Shown: one piece after another, positions 21,106 through 26,365 of the stretch
Position numbering within the stretch: the first letter of the stretch is position 1
Layout: every line of letters begins with the position of its first letter
Assembly: GCA_028875855.1 (NCBI GenBank)
Contig: JAGWVA010000004.1
Coordinates: 1 to 64,000, forward strand
Origin: Paracoccaceae bacterium
Lineage (GTDB): Bacteria > Pseudomonadota > Alphaproteobacteria > Rhodobacterales > Rhodobacteraceae
DNA length: 64,000 bases
Reading direction: 5' to 3'
The notes under the pieces: generated by a model
The model's database searches: none
Told to the model about the DNA's origin: nothing
Seen by the model: the letters and a program-made list of their open reading frames with translations, nothing else
Made by a program: the position numbers and the translations under genes

Positions 21106-23976
21106 TCAGCCCTTGGGCAGGGTCAGCTGCACGTTGCGGCCGTTCTTGACGTAATACAGCATGTCTTCCCCGATGGCCGCGACCCGGCCGCCGTCGAGCA
21201 CATCGCCCACATGCACGGTCTTCACCCGACCGCCCGACAGCCGCACCAGCGCCGTGCGGTTCTCGGCGGTTCCGAACACCCCGAGCAGGTTGATCCTGTT
21301 GAGGTTGATGGCGCCAACGATCGTGGCTTCCTTGGCGACAGAGGGGTTGGCAGGCAGAGGGGGCATCTTGGTCGGAGTCTCGGGTTCAGGTTGAGCCTCC
21401 GGGCTCTGCCGCGTTTGGGTGTTAACCGCAAGGGCCGAGGCCACCGCGGCGTTGACACTCTTGTTCAAGGTCTCGTCGGATGCGCGTGAAGCCGCCGTGC
21501 GCATGGCAAGAAGCTGCCGGGGCAGGCCCTTGGGCCGCGGCGAGGCGGCAAGCGCCAGCGGGCTGACCAGATCCGAGGGCGGCGCGCCCAGTGTCGGGCC
21601 ACCGGCGTCGGCCGTCGCGGTCTGGCTGGCGGCGGCTGCGGGCTTGGCAAAGATGCCTGTCGTGGGCCGCGCCTTCGGGCGGACCGAGGGAAGGACCGGC
21701 CCGGCAAGGGGGCGCGGCAGCGGCGTCACGGCGGCGGTCTTTGCGGTGGGCGTCGCCGCCGGTGCCGGGGCCGGCGCTTGCAGCGCTGCGAGAGCGGCGG
21801 GTGCCGTGTCCGCGGCGGGGGCGGGCGCCGCGGCGGCGGGCGAGGCCGGCTGGGGCTGCGGCGGCGGCGTCACCCGGGGCGTGCCGTCATGCCCGTCGGG
21901 GCCCCGCGCGGTCAGCACGGATTGCGGTGCCGAAGGCAGGCTTGGGTCCACGGAGGCCAGCGTGATCTCGCCCGCCGAGGGGGCGGGAGCGGGCGGTTTC
22001 GTCATCGCGGTGGCCTGAAGAACAGCCGTCGGCGCCCCGTCGGAGGCGGTCGCCACCGTGTCCGGGACCGCCGAAGGGGTGGCCGTCACAACCGCGGCAG
22101 GGGCCGTCGCCCCCGAAGATGCCGGGGCCGTCGTGGCGTTGGGCTGCTGGCCGCCGGTTCCCGCATCCCCGACCGAGGCCTGCGTCGCAGATGCGGTCGC
22201 CGCGTCGCCGGCCACGCTGGCCGACGCCTGTTGCGTCTGTGCCGGGGACGCCGCCGGTCCGGCGTCTGGCGTCTGGGCCGCGCCCTGCACCTGCGCCGCG
22301 CCGGGCGGCGCCGTGCGCGACGGCTGCATCGAGGACCAAACGACCACGGCGCCGATCAGCAGAAGCAGGACCAGCGTCAGGATGATGCCCACCTTCAGGG
22401 GCGCACCTTGCGGTTTGCCCTTGCGCGCGCCGAAGACCGTCATCGCCTCGGCCTCCGATGCGGGCCGGGGCACGTCGGGCGGCGTCGTCACCGGGGGCAC
22501 GGCCGGTGCCGGACGGGCCATGCGCGGGGCGTCGGGCGGCGTCAGCCCGGTGGTTGCCTCGACGGGGCTGTCGGGCAGGAAGCGGGAATGGTCCACCCGC
22601 TCGGGCAGTTGAGGGGCCTGCGGCTTCGTCTTGGGCCTCTGCGCCTTGAGGGGCGGCGGCTCGCGGCCTGCGATGCCGCCGGGCGCGGCGGGCTTCGGCT
22701 TCCCGCGCTTGGCCGCGAGGGCGGTCTTCACGGCTTCGGGCATCGCGGTCAGGGTCAGGCGTGCGCCCGCAGGCGGCGCCGGCGTCTCGACCAGCGGTGC
22801 CGACAGGGGGCGAGCCTCCGCCGTCCCGCGACGGCTGAAAAAGGCGGGCCCCGGCGATGCGTCCTGCCCCTGCGGGGACGGGGCCGGGGGCGGCGGCGGG
22901 ATGTCATCCTCGGGAATGACGGGCGATGTCACGCTGACGCGCGGCCGGTCGGTCAGGCCGAAACTGCCCGGCTCCCGAAGTTCCGAGACGCTGGCCGGGG
23001 CGATCACCACATCGTCGTCGTCGATCGCCTCGACAAAGGGAGCCTCGTCCGCCTCGTCCATCTGCCCGGACATGGACGGCGCGCGCAGCTCGGACACCGG
23101 GGCCGGCTTCACGGTCTCGTCCTCAGGGACGGCGGGCACCACGTCCTCGGGCTGGGCCAGGGCGGCGTCCGGCATCACGGCTTCCGCCGCGGGGGCGGCC
23201 TCCGGCGGCGCGTCGACCGGTTCCGGACCCACCGGCGCCGCCTCCGTGGTCGCGTCCCGGGCCTCCTCGGGCCCGGCCGGTGCGGCGTCCTCTACCGGAG
23301 CTTCCGCCGCAGCCGCGTCTTCGACCGCAGCGGGGGCGGCCTCGGGCTCCGCCTCTCCGACCGGCGCGGGCGCGGCATAGGGCTCGGGCGGCGCGGCATC
23401 GGCCATGGGGGCATCGGCGGGCGGCAGGCTTGCGCGTCCGACGATCCGCACCGGCTCCTGATCGCGTTCGAACGTATCGCCGGCCAGCAGCACCGGCGCG
23501 GCGTCCGTCTGGCCGAAGAACGGCTCGCCGGCAAAGTTCAGCGGTTCGGGTATGGCGACGAAGGACACCGGGTTGAACCGATGCTCCAGCGCGAACTGCT
23601 CGGCTTCCTGCAGGGTTTCGCGCGCAACGACGGCGACCTGCACCATCGCGCCGGTGCCGGACCAGGCGAAGACCAGTTCCTCGACCGGATAGGGCGTCGC
23701 CCCGTCCAGTGCGGCGGCGATCTGTTCGCGGCGCTTGGCGACCGAGGGGCCGGGCGCCTCGATCTTGCGGTAAAGGATCTGCGAGGGCGGGATGATCAGC
23801 TTCGTCGTCAGCCCCCGGGGCTCCAGCCCGAGCGCTGTCGCGCGCAGATAGGCCATCGCCTCGCCAAGGTCCGGGGCGTCCAGCGGAACCTCGCCGACAA
23901 CGATCCATCCCCGTCCTGTCCGGTGCAGCAGCGCAATCGCGTCCGGATTGAGGTTGAGAGCAAAACTTGGTTTCAT
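21106..23976 (-). CDS. Large single-pass protein with GspL/PilM-like N-terminus and GspC/PilP-like C-terminus
   Basis: A 956-residue protein of unassigned function. Residues 1-170 resemble the cytoplasmic actin-like domain of GspL/PilM proteins (SFALNLNPDAIALLHR, then IIPPSQILYRKIEAPG and LDGATPYPVEELVFAW). Residues 180-520 are Ala/Pro/Glu-rich and probably disordered. One membrane helix lies at about 526-548 (VGIILTLVLLLLIGAVVVW). Residues 550-875 are Ala/Pro/Thr-rich, suited to span the periplasm. The last 75 residues (INLLGVFGTAENRTALVRL, then VHVGDVLDGGRVAAIGEDML) look like the PilP/GspC homology domain. No other secretion or pilus genes are adjacent. The domain assignments are by pattern only and would need profile searches. 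Confidence 0.72.
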   Translation of the reverse strand: MKPSFALNLNPDAIALLHRTGRGWIVVGEVPLDAPDLGEAMAYLRATALGLEPRGLTTKLIIPPSQILYRKIEAPGPSVAKRREQIAAALDGATPYPVEELVFAWSGTGAMVQVAVVARETLQEAEQFALEHRFNPVSFVAIPEPLNFAGEPFFGQTDAAPVLLAGDTFERDQEPVRIVGRASLPPADAPMADAAPPEPYAAPAPVGEAEPEAAPAAVEDAAAAEAPVEDAAPAGPEEARDATTEAAPVGPEPVDAPPEAAPAAEAVMPDAALAQPEDVVPAVPEDETVKPAPVSELRAPSMSGQMDEADEAPFVEAIDDDDVVIAPASVSELREPGSFGLTDRPRVSVTSPVIPEDDIPPPPPAPSPQGQDASPGPAFFSRRGTAEARPLSAPLVETPAPPAGARLTLTAMPEAVKTALAAKRGKPKPAAPGGIAGREPPPLKAQRPKTKPQAPQLPERVDHSRFLPDSPVEATTGLTPPDAPRMARPAPAVPPVTTPPDVPRPASEAEAMTVFGARKGKPQGAPLKVGIILTLVLLLLIGAVVVWSSMQPSRTAPPGAAQVQGAAQTPDAGPAASPAQTQQASASVAGDAATASATQASVGDAGTGGQQPNATTAPASSGATAPAAVVTATPSAVPDTVATASDGAPTAVLQATAMTKPPAPAPSAGEITLASVDPSLPSAPQSVLTARGPDGHDGTPRVTPPPQPQPASPAAAAPAPAADTAPAALAALQAPAPAPAATPTAKTAAVTPLPRPLAGPVLPSVRPKARPTTGIFAKPAAAASQTATADAGGPTLGAPPSDLVSPLALAASPRPKGLPRQLLAMRTAASRASDETLNKSVNAAVASALAVNTQTRQSPEAQPEPETPTKMPPLPANPSVAKEATIVGAINLNRINLLGVFGTAENRTALVRLSGGRVKTVHVGDVLDGGRVAAIGEDMLYYVKNGRNVQLTLPKG

Positions 23977-24142
23977 AACTCGGCTCTAGCACAAGGGATG
24001 TGGGTGGAGGAGGTCGCGCCCTTGGCCTGTGGTTTCTACAGCAGGAAACCGCTCAGGCAAAGGAAATCGCCTTCGGTCTCTTGCCTTCACATGGTCTTGA
24101 GCAGAGCCTCCCGCAAGGCGGCGCAGCGTTGGAGGATATGCG

Positions 24143-24883
24143 ATGAAACGACTACATCTTCTGGGCCTCGCGGTGCTGGCGCTTGCCCCGATCGGGCTGG
24201 CGGGTCCGGCCCGCGCGCAGCCCGCGACGGCGGCGGGAACCGCCCCGGCAGAGGCGGGCGCGACCCTCTCTGTCACCGGCACGGGGCGGGTGAGCCGCGC
24301 CCCCGACATGGCCAGCATCGTTCTGGGGGTAACGGCCGAGGGCAAGACCGCGGCCGAGGCCGTGGCCGGCATGTCGAAGGATCTGGCCGCCGTTCTGGCC
24401 CATGTGCAGACCGAGGGGATCGAGGGGCGCGACGTGCAGACCTCGGGCCTCAGCCTTTCGCCGCGCTGGAGCCAGCCGCGCCCGGGCAGCACCGCGCCGG
24501 CCCGGATCGAGGGATTCGTGGCCTCCAGCCGGGTGACGGTCACCGTCCGCGCGCTCGACCGGCTGGGACGCGTGCTGGATCAGGTGGTGAAGGCCGGGGC
24601 GAACGGCTTTTCGGGGCTGACCTTCGCGCTGTCCGATCCCGCCCCGGTCGAGGATGCGGCGCGCAAGGCGGCGGTGGCGGATGCGATCCACAAGGCGGGC
24701 GTGCTTGCCGCGGCGGCCGGTCTGACGCTCGGCCCGGTGCGCGAGATCTCGGACGAGGCGGTCAGCCGCCCGCCGTTGATGTTCGCCATGAAGGCCGCGC
24801 CGATGGGGTCCGAGGTGCCCGTGGCGCAGGGCGAGATCGACACCCAGGTGACGGTGCGCATGGTCTTCGCGCTCGGCCGGTGA
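24143..24883 (+). CDS. SIMPL domain periplasmic protein (DUF541)
   Basis: A 246-residue exported protein. Residues 1-27 form a signal peptide (MKRLHLLGLAVLALAPIGLA, cleavage near AQPAT). The rest is one SIMPL domain: LSVTGTGRVSRAPDMASIVLGV near 47-68, GRDVQTSGLSLSPRW near 97-111, and the repeated VRALDRLGRVLDQVVKAGANGFSGL. The family (E. coli YggE type) is periplasmic and linked to oxidative stress, but its mechanism is not established. It is divergent from the GspL-like gene across 166 bases and converges with metY. Confidence 0.9.
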   Translation: MKRLHLLGLAVLALAPIGLAGPARAQPATAAGTAPAEAGATLSVTGTGRVSRAPDMASIVLGVTAEGKTAAEAVAGMSKDLAAVLAHVQTEGIEGRDVQTSGLSLSPRWSQPRPGSTAPARIEGFVASSRVTVTVRALDRLGRVLDQVVKAGANGFSGLTFALSDPAPVEDAARKAAVADAIHKAGVLAAAAGLTLGPVREISDEAVSRPPLMFAMKAAPMGSEVPVAQGEIDTQVTVRMVFALGR

Positions 24884-24902
24884 CGGTCGATCCACCGGGG
24901 GA

Positions 24903-24920
24903 CCCCGCCCTTGGGCGGGG
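24903..24920. terminator. GC-rich hairpin between convergent SIMPL and metY genes
   Basis: A perfect CCCCGCCC/GGGCGGGG inverted repeat with two bases between the arms lies between two convergent genes. It lacks a T tract, so calling it a terminator is an inference from its position. Confidence 0.4.
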
Positions 24921-24937
24921 CCCGGAGGGCCGGGGGC

Positions 24938-26224
24938 TCAGGCCGTGGCTTTCGCCAGCGCCTGATCGAGGTCGGCGATCAGGTCGTCTGCATTCTCGAT
25001 CCCGATCGACAGGCGCACGACATTGTCCGCCGCCCCCGCCTTGGCGCGCGCCTCGGGCGAAAGCTGGCGGTGCGTGGTCGAGGCCGAATGGATGATGAGC
25101 GACCGCGTATCGCCAAGGTTCGCCACGTGGCTGAAAAGCTCCAGCCCGTTCACCAGCTTCACGCAGGCGTCGTAGCCCCCCTTCAGCGCCACGGTGAAAA
25201 GCGCGCCCGCGCCCTTCGGGCAGATGCGCGCCACGCGTTCGTGATAGGGCGAGGACGGCAGGCCCGCATAGGTCACCGCCTCGACCCGCGGGTCGGCTTC
25301 GAGCCAGGCCGCGACCTTCTGCGCATTCGCCACATGGCGGTCCATCCGCAGGCTCAGCGTCTCGATCCCCATCAGCGTGTAATGCGCGCCCTGCGGGTTC
25401 ATCGTCATGCCCAGATCGCGCAGGCCGATGGCGATGCCGTAGAAGGTGAAGGCCATCGGCCCGAGCGCCTCGTGGAACTTCAGCCCGTGATAGGCGGGCT
25501 CGGGGTCGCTCAGCGACGGGAACTTGCCCGATGCCGACCAGTCGAACGTCCCGGAATCCACCACCGCGCCGCCCGTGACCGTGCCGTTGCCGGTCAGGTA
25601 TTTCGTGGTCGAATGCACCACCAGCGTCGCGCCATGCTCGATCGGGCGACAGAGGTAGGGCGTGGCCGAGGTGTTGTCCACGATCAGCGGCAGCCCCGCC
25701 GCATCGGCGATCTTCGCCACCGCGTCGAGGTCGGTGATATAGCCGCCCGGGTTCGCGATCGACTCGCAGAAGATCGCGCGCGTGTTGTCGTCGATCGCGG
25801 CCGCGACCGCGTCGAGGTCGTCGAAATCGACGAACGTCGCCGACCAGCCGAACTTGCGGATCGTGTTCGAGAATTGCTGCACCGTGCCGCCGTAAAGCCG
25901 GGTCGAGGCCACGATATTGCGCCCCGGCGCCATCAGCGGGAACAGCGCCATGATCTGCGCGGCATGTCCCGACGAGCAGCAGACCGCCCCCGCGCCGCCC
26001 TCGAGCGCCGCGATGCGGTTCTGCAGCGCCCCCACCGTCGGGTTGGTCAGGCGCGAATAGATGTAGCCCACTTCCTGAAGATTGAAGAGCGCCGCCGCGT
26101 GATCGGCGTCCCGAAACACATAGGCCGTCGTCTGGTAGATCGGCACCTGCCGCGCGCCGGTCGCGGGGTCGGGCTCTGCGCCCGCGTGAACTTGGAGCGT
26201 GTCGAAGCCGTAGGTCTTGGTCAT
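24938..26224 (-). CDS. metY: O-acetylhomoserine aminocarboxypropyltransferase (sulfhydrylase)
   Basis: A 428-residue Cys/Met-metabolism PLP enzyme of the MetY group, making homocysteine from O-acetylhomoserine and sulfide. The PLP lysine is in VVHSTTKYLTGNGTV near 205-219. Family features are YSRLTNPTVGALQNRIAALEGG near 56-77, SSGHAAQIMALFPL near 83-96, and the C-terminal HVANLGDTRSLIIHSASTTH near 363-382. The start at 26224 follows GGGAGGG; the longer ORF in the track runs through non-coding leader. Together with hom and metK elsewhere in the window it belongs to methionine supply. Confidence 0.93.
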   Translation of the reverse strand: MTKTYGFDTLQVHAGAEPDPATGARQVPIYQTTAYVFRDADHAAALFNLQEVGYIYSRLTNPTVGALQNRIAALEGGAGAVCCSSGHAAQIMALFPLMAPGRNIVASTRLYGGTVQQFSNTIRKFGWSATFVDFDDLDAVAAAIDDNTRAIFCESIANPGGYITDLDAVAKIADAAGLPLIVDNTSATPYLCRPIEHGATLVVHSTTKYLTGNGTVTGGAVVDSGTFDWSASGKFPSLSDPEPAYHGLKFHEALGPMAFTFYGIAIGLRDLGMTMNPQGAHYTLMGIETLSLRMDRHVANAQKVAAWLEADPRVEAVTYAGLPSSPYHERVARICPKGAGALFTVALKGGYDACVKLVNGLELFSHVANLGDTRSLIIHSASTTHRQLSPEARAKAGAADNVVRLSIGIENADDLIADLDQALAKATA

Positions 26225-26365
26225 GGGGCCCTCCCGTTTGGTTTGACCGAAGCCTAGGCCAAGCCGGGATGGCGCACAATATCGGCGCCTGCGCGGACCT
26301 CTCACGCACTTGGCCCTCCTCCGGCGGGGATCGTCCTCACGGAAAAAAACAGCGTTCCGCCCCGG

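Follow-up and report, generated by a model that had tools for sequence, protein, structure and literature searches.

Platform proteins in known secretion systems and pili

The closest described relatives of the protein presented here belong to the platforms of type II secretion systems (T2SS) and type IV pili (T4P). GspL of the T2SS (EpsL/PulL/OutL; PF05134 plus PF05137) has a PilM-like cytoplasmic domain, a single transmembrane (TM) helix and a periplasmic, ferredoxin-like PilN domain, and is encoded alongside the ATPase GspE, which it binds. PilM of the type IVa pilus is soluble and has, besides its subdomains IA and IC, a domain II that allows a nucleotide cleft; PilM and FtsA use the IA-IC cleft to bind PilN and FtsN, respectively (PMC7613929). 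GspC (OutC/EpsC) and PilP carry a small beta domain, called HR in GspC, behind a membrane (or lipid) anchor and a Pro-rich linker, and work with a cognate secretin. Such parts can be joined or displaced: PilO-PilP fusions, as in Pseudomonas putida Q88CU9 (cited in PMC3169554), link two platform proteins, one with a PilP domain, and PilMNO and PilP/PilQ parts have been exapted into the flagellar motor of Campylobacterota (PMC11870540). The GspC and GspL parts and the PilO-PilP fusions are thus already known (PMC3169554). In the literature searched, mostly outside subscription journals, neither a GspL-GspC fusion nor the family of the protein analysed here is described, and no account was found of a stand-alone fusion of a GspL head and a GspC tail that is near-universal in one family.

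A single protein with a GspL/PilM-like head and a GspC/PilP-like tail

The window, a stretch of 64,000 nucleotides from a Paracoccaceae bacterium, encodes the fusion gene on its minus strand (21106-23976; ATG at 23976, stop at 21106-21108). The ORF is intact and, as a sequence-only reading had proposed, yields a single product of 956 aa: a GspL/PilM-like N-domain, a linker, a TM helix, a second linker and a GspC-HR/PilP-like C-domain. A scan of one genome per species gave 48 orthologues, of which the 37 complete ones (763-1402 aa) all repeat the start MKPSFALN, the N-domain, the single TM and the C-domain, so that the layout cannot be put down to chance. Averaged over alignment columns, identity is 63% for the head and 62% for the tail, and both contain invariant residues; linker lengths vary among orthologues (183 to 606 residues for the first, 297 to 631 for the second), which indicates that constraint acts on the ends and spares the linkers. 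On the strand opposite the fusion gene, a 1105-aa ORF (21778-25095, plus strand) was discarded as an Arg/Gly-rich shadow frame of GC-rich coding DNA.

The head (residues 1-165; 23482-23976, minus strand) of the window protein gave no match in single-sequence searches of Pfam, NCBIfam and PDB. When orthologue heads were scanned member by member against Pfam, 9 of 47 matched T2SSL (GspL; best E-value 7.6e-4) and 5 of 47 matched PilM_2, in alignments colinear with the N-terminal half of these families (residues 46-134 with T2SSL 37-126 of 231; residues 56-110 with PilM_2 63-118 of 340). An AlphaFold2 model built from 47 sequences (pLDDT 95.0, pTM 0.90) found PilM of P. aeruginosa (5eq6, Foldseek E 4.5e-8), cyto-EpsL (1yf5, 1.5e-7) and GspL (4pht, 1.8e-7) as its top PDB matches, with probability 1.00, followed by FtsA (3.9e-5). 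Based on the orthologue Pfam matches and the predicted fold, we assign the head to the PilM/GspL group. One other candidate, a match of profile A1 to designed TPR repeats among PDB sequences (4.8e-14 summed over repeats), was rejected as repeat summation, because no single repeat in the alignments shown scored better than E 30.

In the model, the order of elements (three strands, helix, strand; an inserted strand-helix-strand-strand; helix, strand) would correspond to subdomains IA and IC of PilM/FtsA, a naming based on topology and on the partial profile alignment. The second RNase H-like half is absent: the head ends at 165-185 aa, and the Pfam alignments reach only the N-terminal half of PilM_2 and T2SSL. 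From this topology and length, the head would be unable to form the nucleotide cleft that, with two RNase H-like domains, defines the actin-like ATPase superfamily. An actin-fold-like, GspL/PilM-type N-terminus had been suggested from the sequence; the PilM/EpsL fold matches bear this out, for half an actin fold only. The protein thus shares with PilM the IA and IC fold and the peptide cleft region, and differs from it in lacking domain II and in being membrane-anchored. It shares with GspL the half-actin, PilM-like cytoplasmic domain and the single TM, yet has a 360-residue linker ahead of the TM and no match to the PilN domain (PF05137), either in the protein or elsewhere in its genome. One genome (G516) carries, besides a normal fusion, an isolated head-domain ORF (L087:5574-6443) on a short contig that also holds integrase-like and transposase-like genes.

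The tail (residues 874-956; 21109-21357, minus strand) is a PilP/GspC-HR-like beta domain with a conserved lead-in, and contains the motif VGDVLDGGRVAAIG on which the proposal of a GspC/PilP pattern had been founded. Single-sequence searches gave weak Pfam matches (T2SSC 0.0075, PilP 0.014) and a match to NCBIfam pilP_fam at 3e-5; these lie under the curated cut-offs, so the relationship of the window protein is a distant one. PF04351 (PilP) matches 37 of 38 orthologue tails (best 4.7e-6). The structural model, confident for the last 60 residues, has as top PDB matches PilP (2lc4, 3jc8, 2y4y), the HR of GspC (3oss_C, TMt 0.79, rmsd 1.5) and LspC, together with 7oio, and GspB at a lower rank. 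The top seven matches are all of one fold with probability 1.00, and none passes E 1e-3 because the domain is small. Matches of the C-domain to eIF2-gamma, MlaF and ribosomal L2 were taken as chance matches of small beta domains. The GspC/PilP pattern therefore holds, and predicting the structures of the two ends separately gave a GspL/PilM match for the N-terminus and a GspC/PilP match for the C-terminus. As in GspC and PilP, where its strongest Pfam and PDB matches lie, this small beta domain stands behind a TM and a Pro-rich linker; unlike in these proteins, it is not followed by a PDZ domain or coiled coil, its linker is much longer, it is joined to a GspL head and it is kept without a secretin.

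A second match to the tail domain occurs in about 44 of the 151 family genomes. The five such ORFs that we read (L136:6838-7104, L137:6792-7064, L138:6379-6717, L139:6631-6960 and L140:6465-6758) encode stand-alone proteins of 88-112 aa that show neither a membrane segment nor an obvious signal peptide, and sit between purF and an SDR gene that is followed by surE and pcm. They are probably duplicates of the tail of the fusion and apparently cytoplasmic.

Between the two ends, hydropathy identifies one strong membrane segment (residues 529-547; 22336-22392, minus strand), flanked by linkers of 42-43% Pro plus Ala; the single helix and the two long Pro/Ala-rich linkers were thus rightly recognised at first reading. 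The helix follows the stretch KGKPQGAPLK, whose positive residues on the N side predict an N-in/C-out topology, and the single TM of most orthologues comes after GGKPRYLG or a similar sequence. The first, presumably cytoplasmic linker (residues 166-528; 22393-23481, minus strand) is rich in Pro, Ala and Glu and acidic (net charge -25). The second (residues 548-873; 21358-22335, minus strand) is rich in Pro, Ala and Thr and nearly neutral (+1), with four RP dipeptides; its periplasmic location is suggested by the charge distribution. Full-length alignment reveals short conserved islands within the linkers, namely AEAMTVFGARK (residues 509-519) immediately ahead of the membrane and, in the putative periplasmic part, motifs rich in RP.

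Neighbourhood and unfused relatives

No secretion gene adjoins the fusion, and its locus has neither a secretin nor gspE. The initial impression of a place without other secretion genes is accurate for the immediate surroundings and does not extend to the genome, where secretins occur in Tad and thin-pilus loci. The trmB gene, which had been considered a potentially conserved neighbour, lies beside the fusion only in the closest relatives (L001 and L002). More stable neighbours are a divergent SIMPL/DUF541 gene (24143-24883, plus strand; conserved in 34 of 46 loci), which is possibly a functional partner or shares a promoter with the fusion, and oah, encoding a PLP enzyme of Cys/Met metabolism (24938-26305, minus strand; a neighbour in about 40 of 46 loci).

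The weakest matches of the head profile within the family exposed an unfused form. In genome G400, one strand carries in order oah, gspE (T2SSE 3e-32, and MshEN), gspL (346 aa; head, TM and PilN; read from two contigs that share an exact overlap of 97 nt), a gspM-like gene and gspC (TM, linker and PilP domain). The orientation relative to oah is that of the fusion, as in the window oah and the fusion gene follow each other on the same strand, with the SIMPL gene between them on the opposite one, so that oah serves as a synteny anchor. In genome G431, gspL (PilN 4.4e-8), gspM (T2SSM_b 2.7e-5) and gspC form a run of three overlapping genes, and the fusion is absent. The head profile matches GspL of G400 and G431 at 2e-20 and 2.3e-15, versus 3e-5 and 5.6e-5 for other GspL proteins; the tail profile matches their GspC at 1.4e-16 and 7.1e-11, versus 0.13 for GspC of G431's own T2SS. 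These PilN-bearing GspL proteins are thus direct relatives of the head, and the two ends of the fusion match two genes of one operon, which in G400 occupies the corresponding chromosomal position. The TM of the fusion was also compared with gspL and gspC as its possible sources, and all scores were near zero.

Splitting of a fused gene could not have generated the PilN and GspM parts of the operon, whose content therefore marks it as the parental arrangement. We best read the fusion as derived from a gspE-gspL-gspM-gspC operon that lost gspE, gspM and the periplasmic PilN half of GspL. In a MetK tree two fused genomes share a clade (100/99) with the operon-bearing ones, and a tree of concatenated heads and tails, rooted on a very long outgroup branch, groups the two operons (97/90). 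The trees that place G400 and G431 among a few fused relatives are weakly supported, and are thus compatible with one or two fusion events. The sole secretin match of G400 lies in a Tad locus (contig C53), which suggests that even the unfused platform was already without a secretin of its own. In two further genomes (G397 and G435), the head and the tail are encoded by separate, adjacent ORFs (L096:3860-5343 and L089:4615-5888) without PilN, GspM or a clear TM, an arrangement that reflects fission, frameshift or decay.

Distribution across Rhodobacteraceae and relation to secretion systems

Among 151 Rhodobacteraceae genomes, profile searches found the head in 141 and the tail in 149, with intact fusion ORFs across about 140 genera; both ends are accordingly retained in the family, as they are in the complete orthologues. 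Nine of the 10 genomes missed by the head profile are recovered by the tail profile, and three of the missed ones (G385, G459 and G515) have complete ORFs with diverged heads. Across 385 genomes of the class, the head profile gave five confident matches, all in Rhodobacteraceae. Two weak matches from this search are PilN-bearing GspL proteins of other families, which is independent evidence for the homology between the head and GspL.

The secretion genes of the family are distributed differently. A secretin (PF00263; too diverged a secretin could escape this count) was matched in 136 of the 151 genomes; the remaining 15 all keep the head, the tail or both, including a single-contig genome (G422) with a complete fusion. 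The pseudopilin GspG is present in 21/151 and PilN in 9/151. The persistence of the fusion in the 15 genomes without a secretin match, along with the rarity of GspG and PilN, argues that it is not tied to a T2SS, T4P or Tad system. The genome of the window itself has no match to GspG or PilN. Its two secretins are a Tad CpaC, between CpaB-like and CpaD/CpaE-like genes (contig C24), and an R64-like thin-pilus secretin beside VirB genes (contig C85); its clear GspE-type ATPases are confined to the Tad locus and the T4SS/thin-pilus contig, with two additional weak T2SSE matches under the cut-off. The genome thus does not show the joint set of major (pseudo)pilin, ATPase, platform protein GspF and secretin that makes up a T2SS or T4P machine, its secretins and ATPases belonging to other systems. 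The latter contig (L057, L058) holds an R64/IncI-like thin-pilus set (a LysM+TcpQ protein, secretin, ATPase, PilS and a shufflon-type PilV), which together with the adjacent VirB-type T4SS genes is probably a plasmid or an integrated element.

A proposed stand-alone tether, probably derived from a secretion platform

The analysis establishes which domains the protein has and how they are arranged, how it is distributed, and its relatives and synteny with respect to the unfused operons. We propose, with a probability of roughly 0.6, that the fusion is a collapsed platform relic, fixed across Rhodobacteraceae and independent of any pilus or secretion machine, which now acts as a stand-alone tether. 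The topology, the docking of a peptide, the partners and the tethering itself are conjectural and may be pictured as follows. The head, keeping its IA-IC cleft, would dock a cytoplasmic partner peptide or protein without nucleotide; the predicted single TM would anchor the fusion in the inner membrane; the Pro/Ala linker of about 330 residues could reach through the periplasm as a flexible arm; and the small beta domain would bind a periplasmic or outer-membrane partner. The whole protein would then be a flexible tether between cytoplasm and outer envelope, made from an exapted platform part. Since the dimer-forming ferredoxin-like domains were lost with PilN and GspM, the platform ring is probably no longer built. 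On balance, we also favour the view that this collapse to one protein, without motor, pilin or secretin, produced a near-universal trans-envelope scaffold with a housekeeping role in envelope organisation, division or polarity.

We weighed four other explanations. The fusion might be an accessory inner-membrane part of the Tad (Flp) pilus, with its C-domain docked on the secretin CpaC and its N-domain on either CpaF or TadB/C; it would then stand in for GspL/GspC, for which the Tad machine has no other equivalent. HR/PilP domains bind the N0 domain of secretins (PMC3169554), 136 of the 151 genomes have a secretin, and both chromosomal secretin loci that we read (C24 in the window's own genome, C53 in G400) are Tad loci. 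Yet the fusion gene lies inside the Tad locus in none of the loci read, and all 15 genomes lacking a secretin match, G422 with its complete protein among them, keep head, tail or both, making this explanation unlikely. The tail could still bind the Tad secretin in genomes that have one.

Quite unlikely as well is a specific role in cell division or polarity, like that of FtsA/FtsN or of a polar landmark, in which the head would dock a peptide of the divisome or of the cell pole. Among the fold matches, FtsA comes directly after PilM/GspL (3.9e-5), and the IA-IC cleft is also the one occupied by FtsN (PMC7613929), but the PilM/GspL matches are stronger, the operon relatives are platform genes and no genetic link was seen.

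That the protein serves a T2SS or T4P otherwise encoded elsewhere in the genome is largely refuted: domain identity and the presence of T2SS genes in some family members (21/151) speak for it, but the protein is kept in nearly all genomes while GspG is absent from 130/151, and the window's own genome has neither GspG nor PilN and has its secretins and clear GspE-type ATPases only in the Tad locus and the T4SS/thin-pilus contig. A functionless relic kept by chance, as the lost platform partners, the freely drifting linkers and the two-ORF forms in G397 and G435 might suggest, is hardly credible given intact ORFs in about 140 genera and the 63% (head) and 62% (tail) identity with invariant residues.

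The stand-alone tether that we prefer can be compared with known arrangements. In PilO-PilP fusions, two platform proteins are likewise joined within a T4P; here PilN and PilO/GspM have been lost and no pilus is needed. FcpMNO and PflD of the Campylobacterota flagellar motor cage (PMC11870540) similarly form an envelope scaffold derived from PilM/N/O/P outside any pilus, but they are separate proteins that include PilN and PilO, are flagellar and belong to a different phylum. This use of pilus platform proteins is the sole parallel in the literature searched. The fusion represents a clear case of molecular exaptation whose intermediate can still be seen, since a relative keeps the unfused operon at the corresponding chromosomal position. 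With it one can test whether a GspC/PilP domain is able to function in the absence of a secretin, and a PilM-type domain in that of nucleotide. For the Rhodobacteraceae, a large family of marine and soil bacteria, it offers an entry point to an uncharacterised protein that is kept in nearly every genus.
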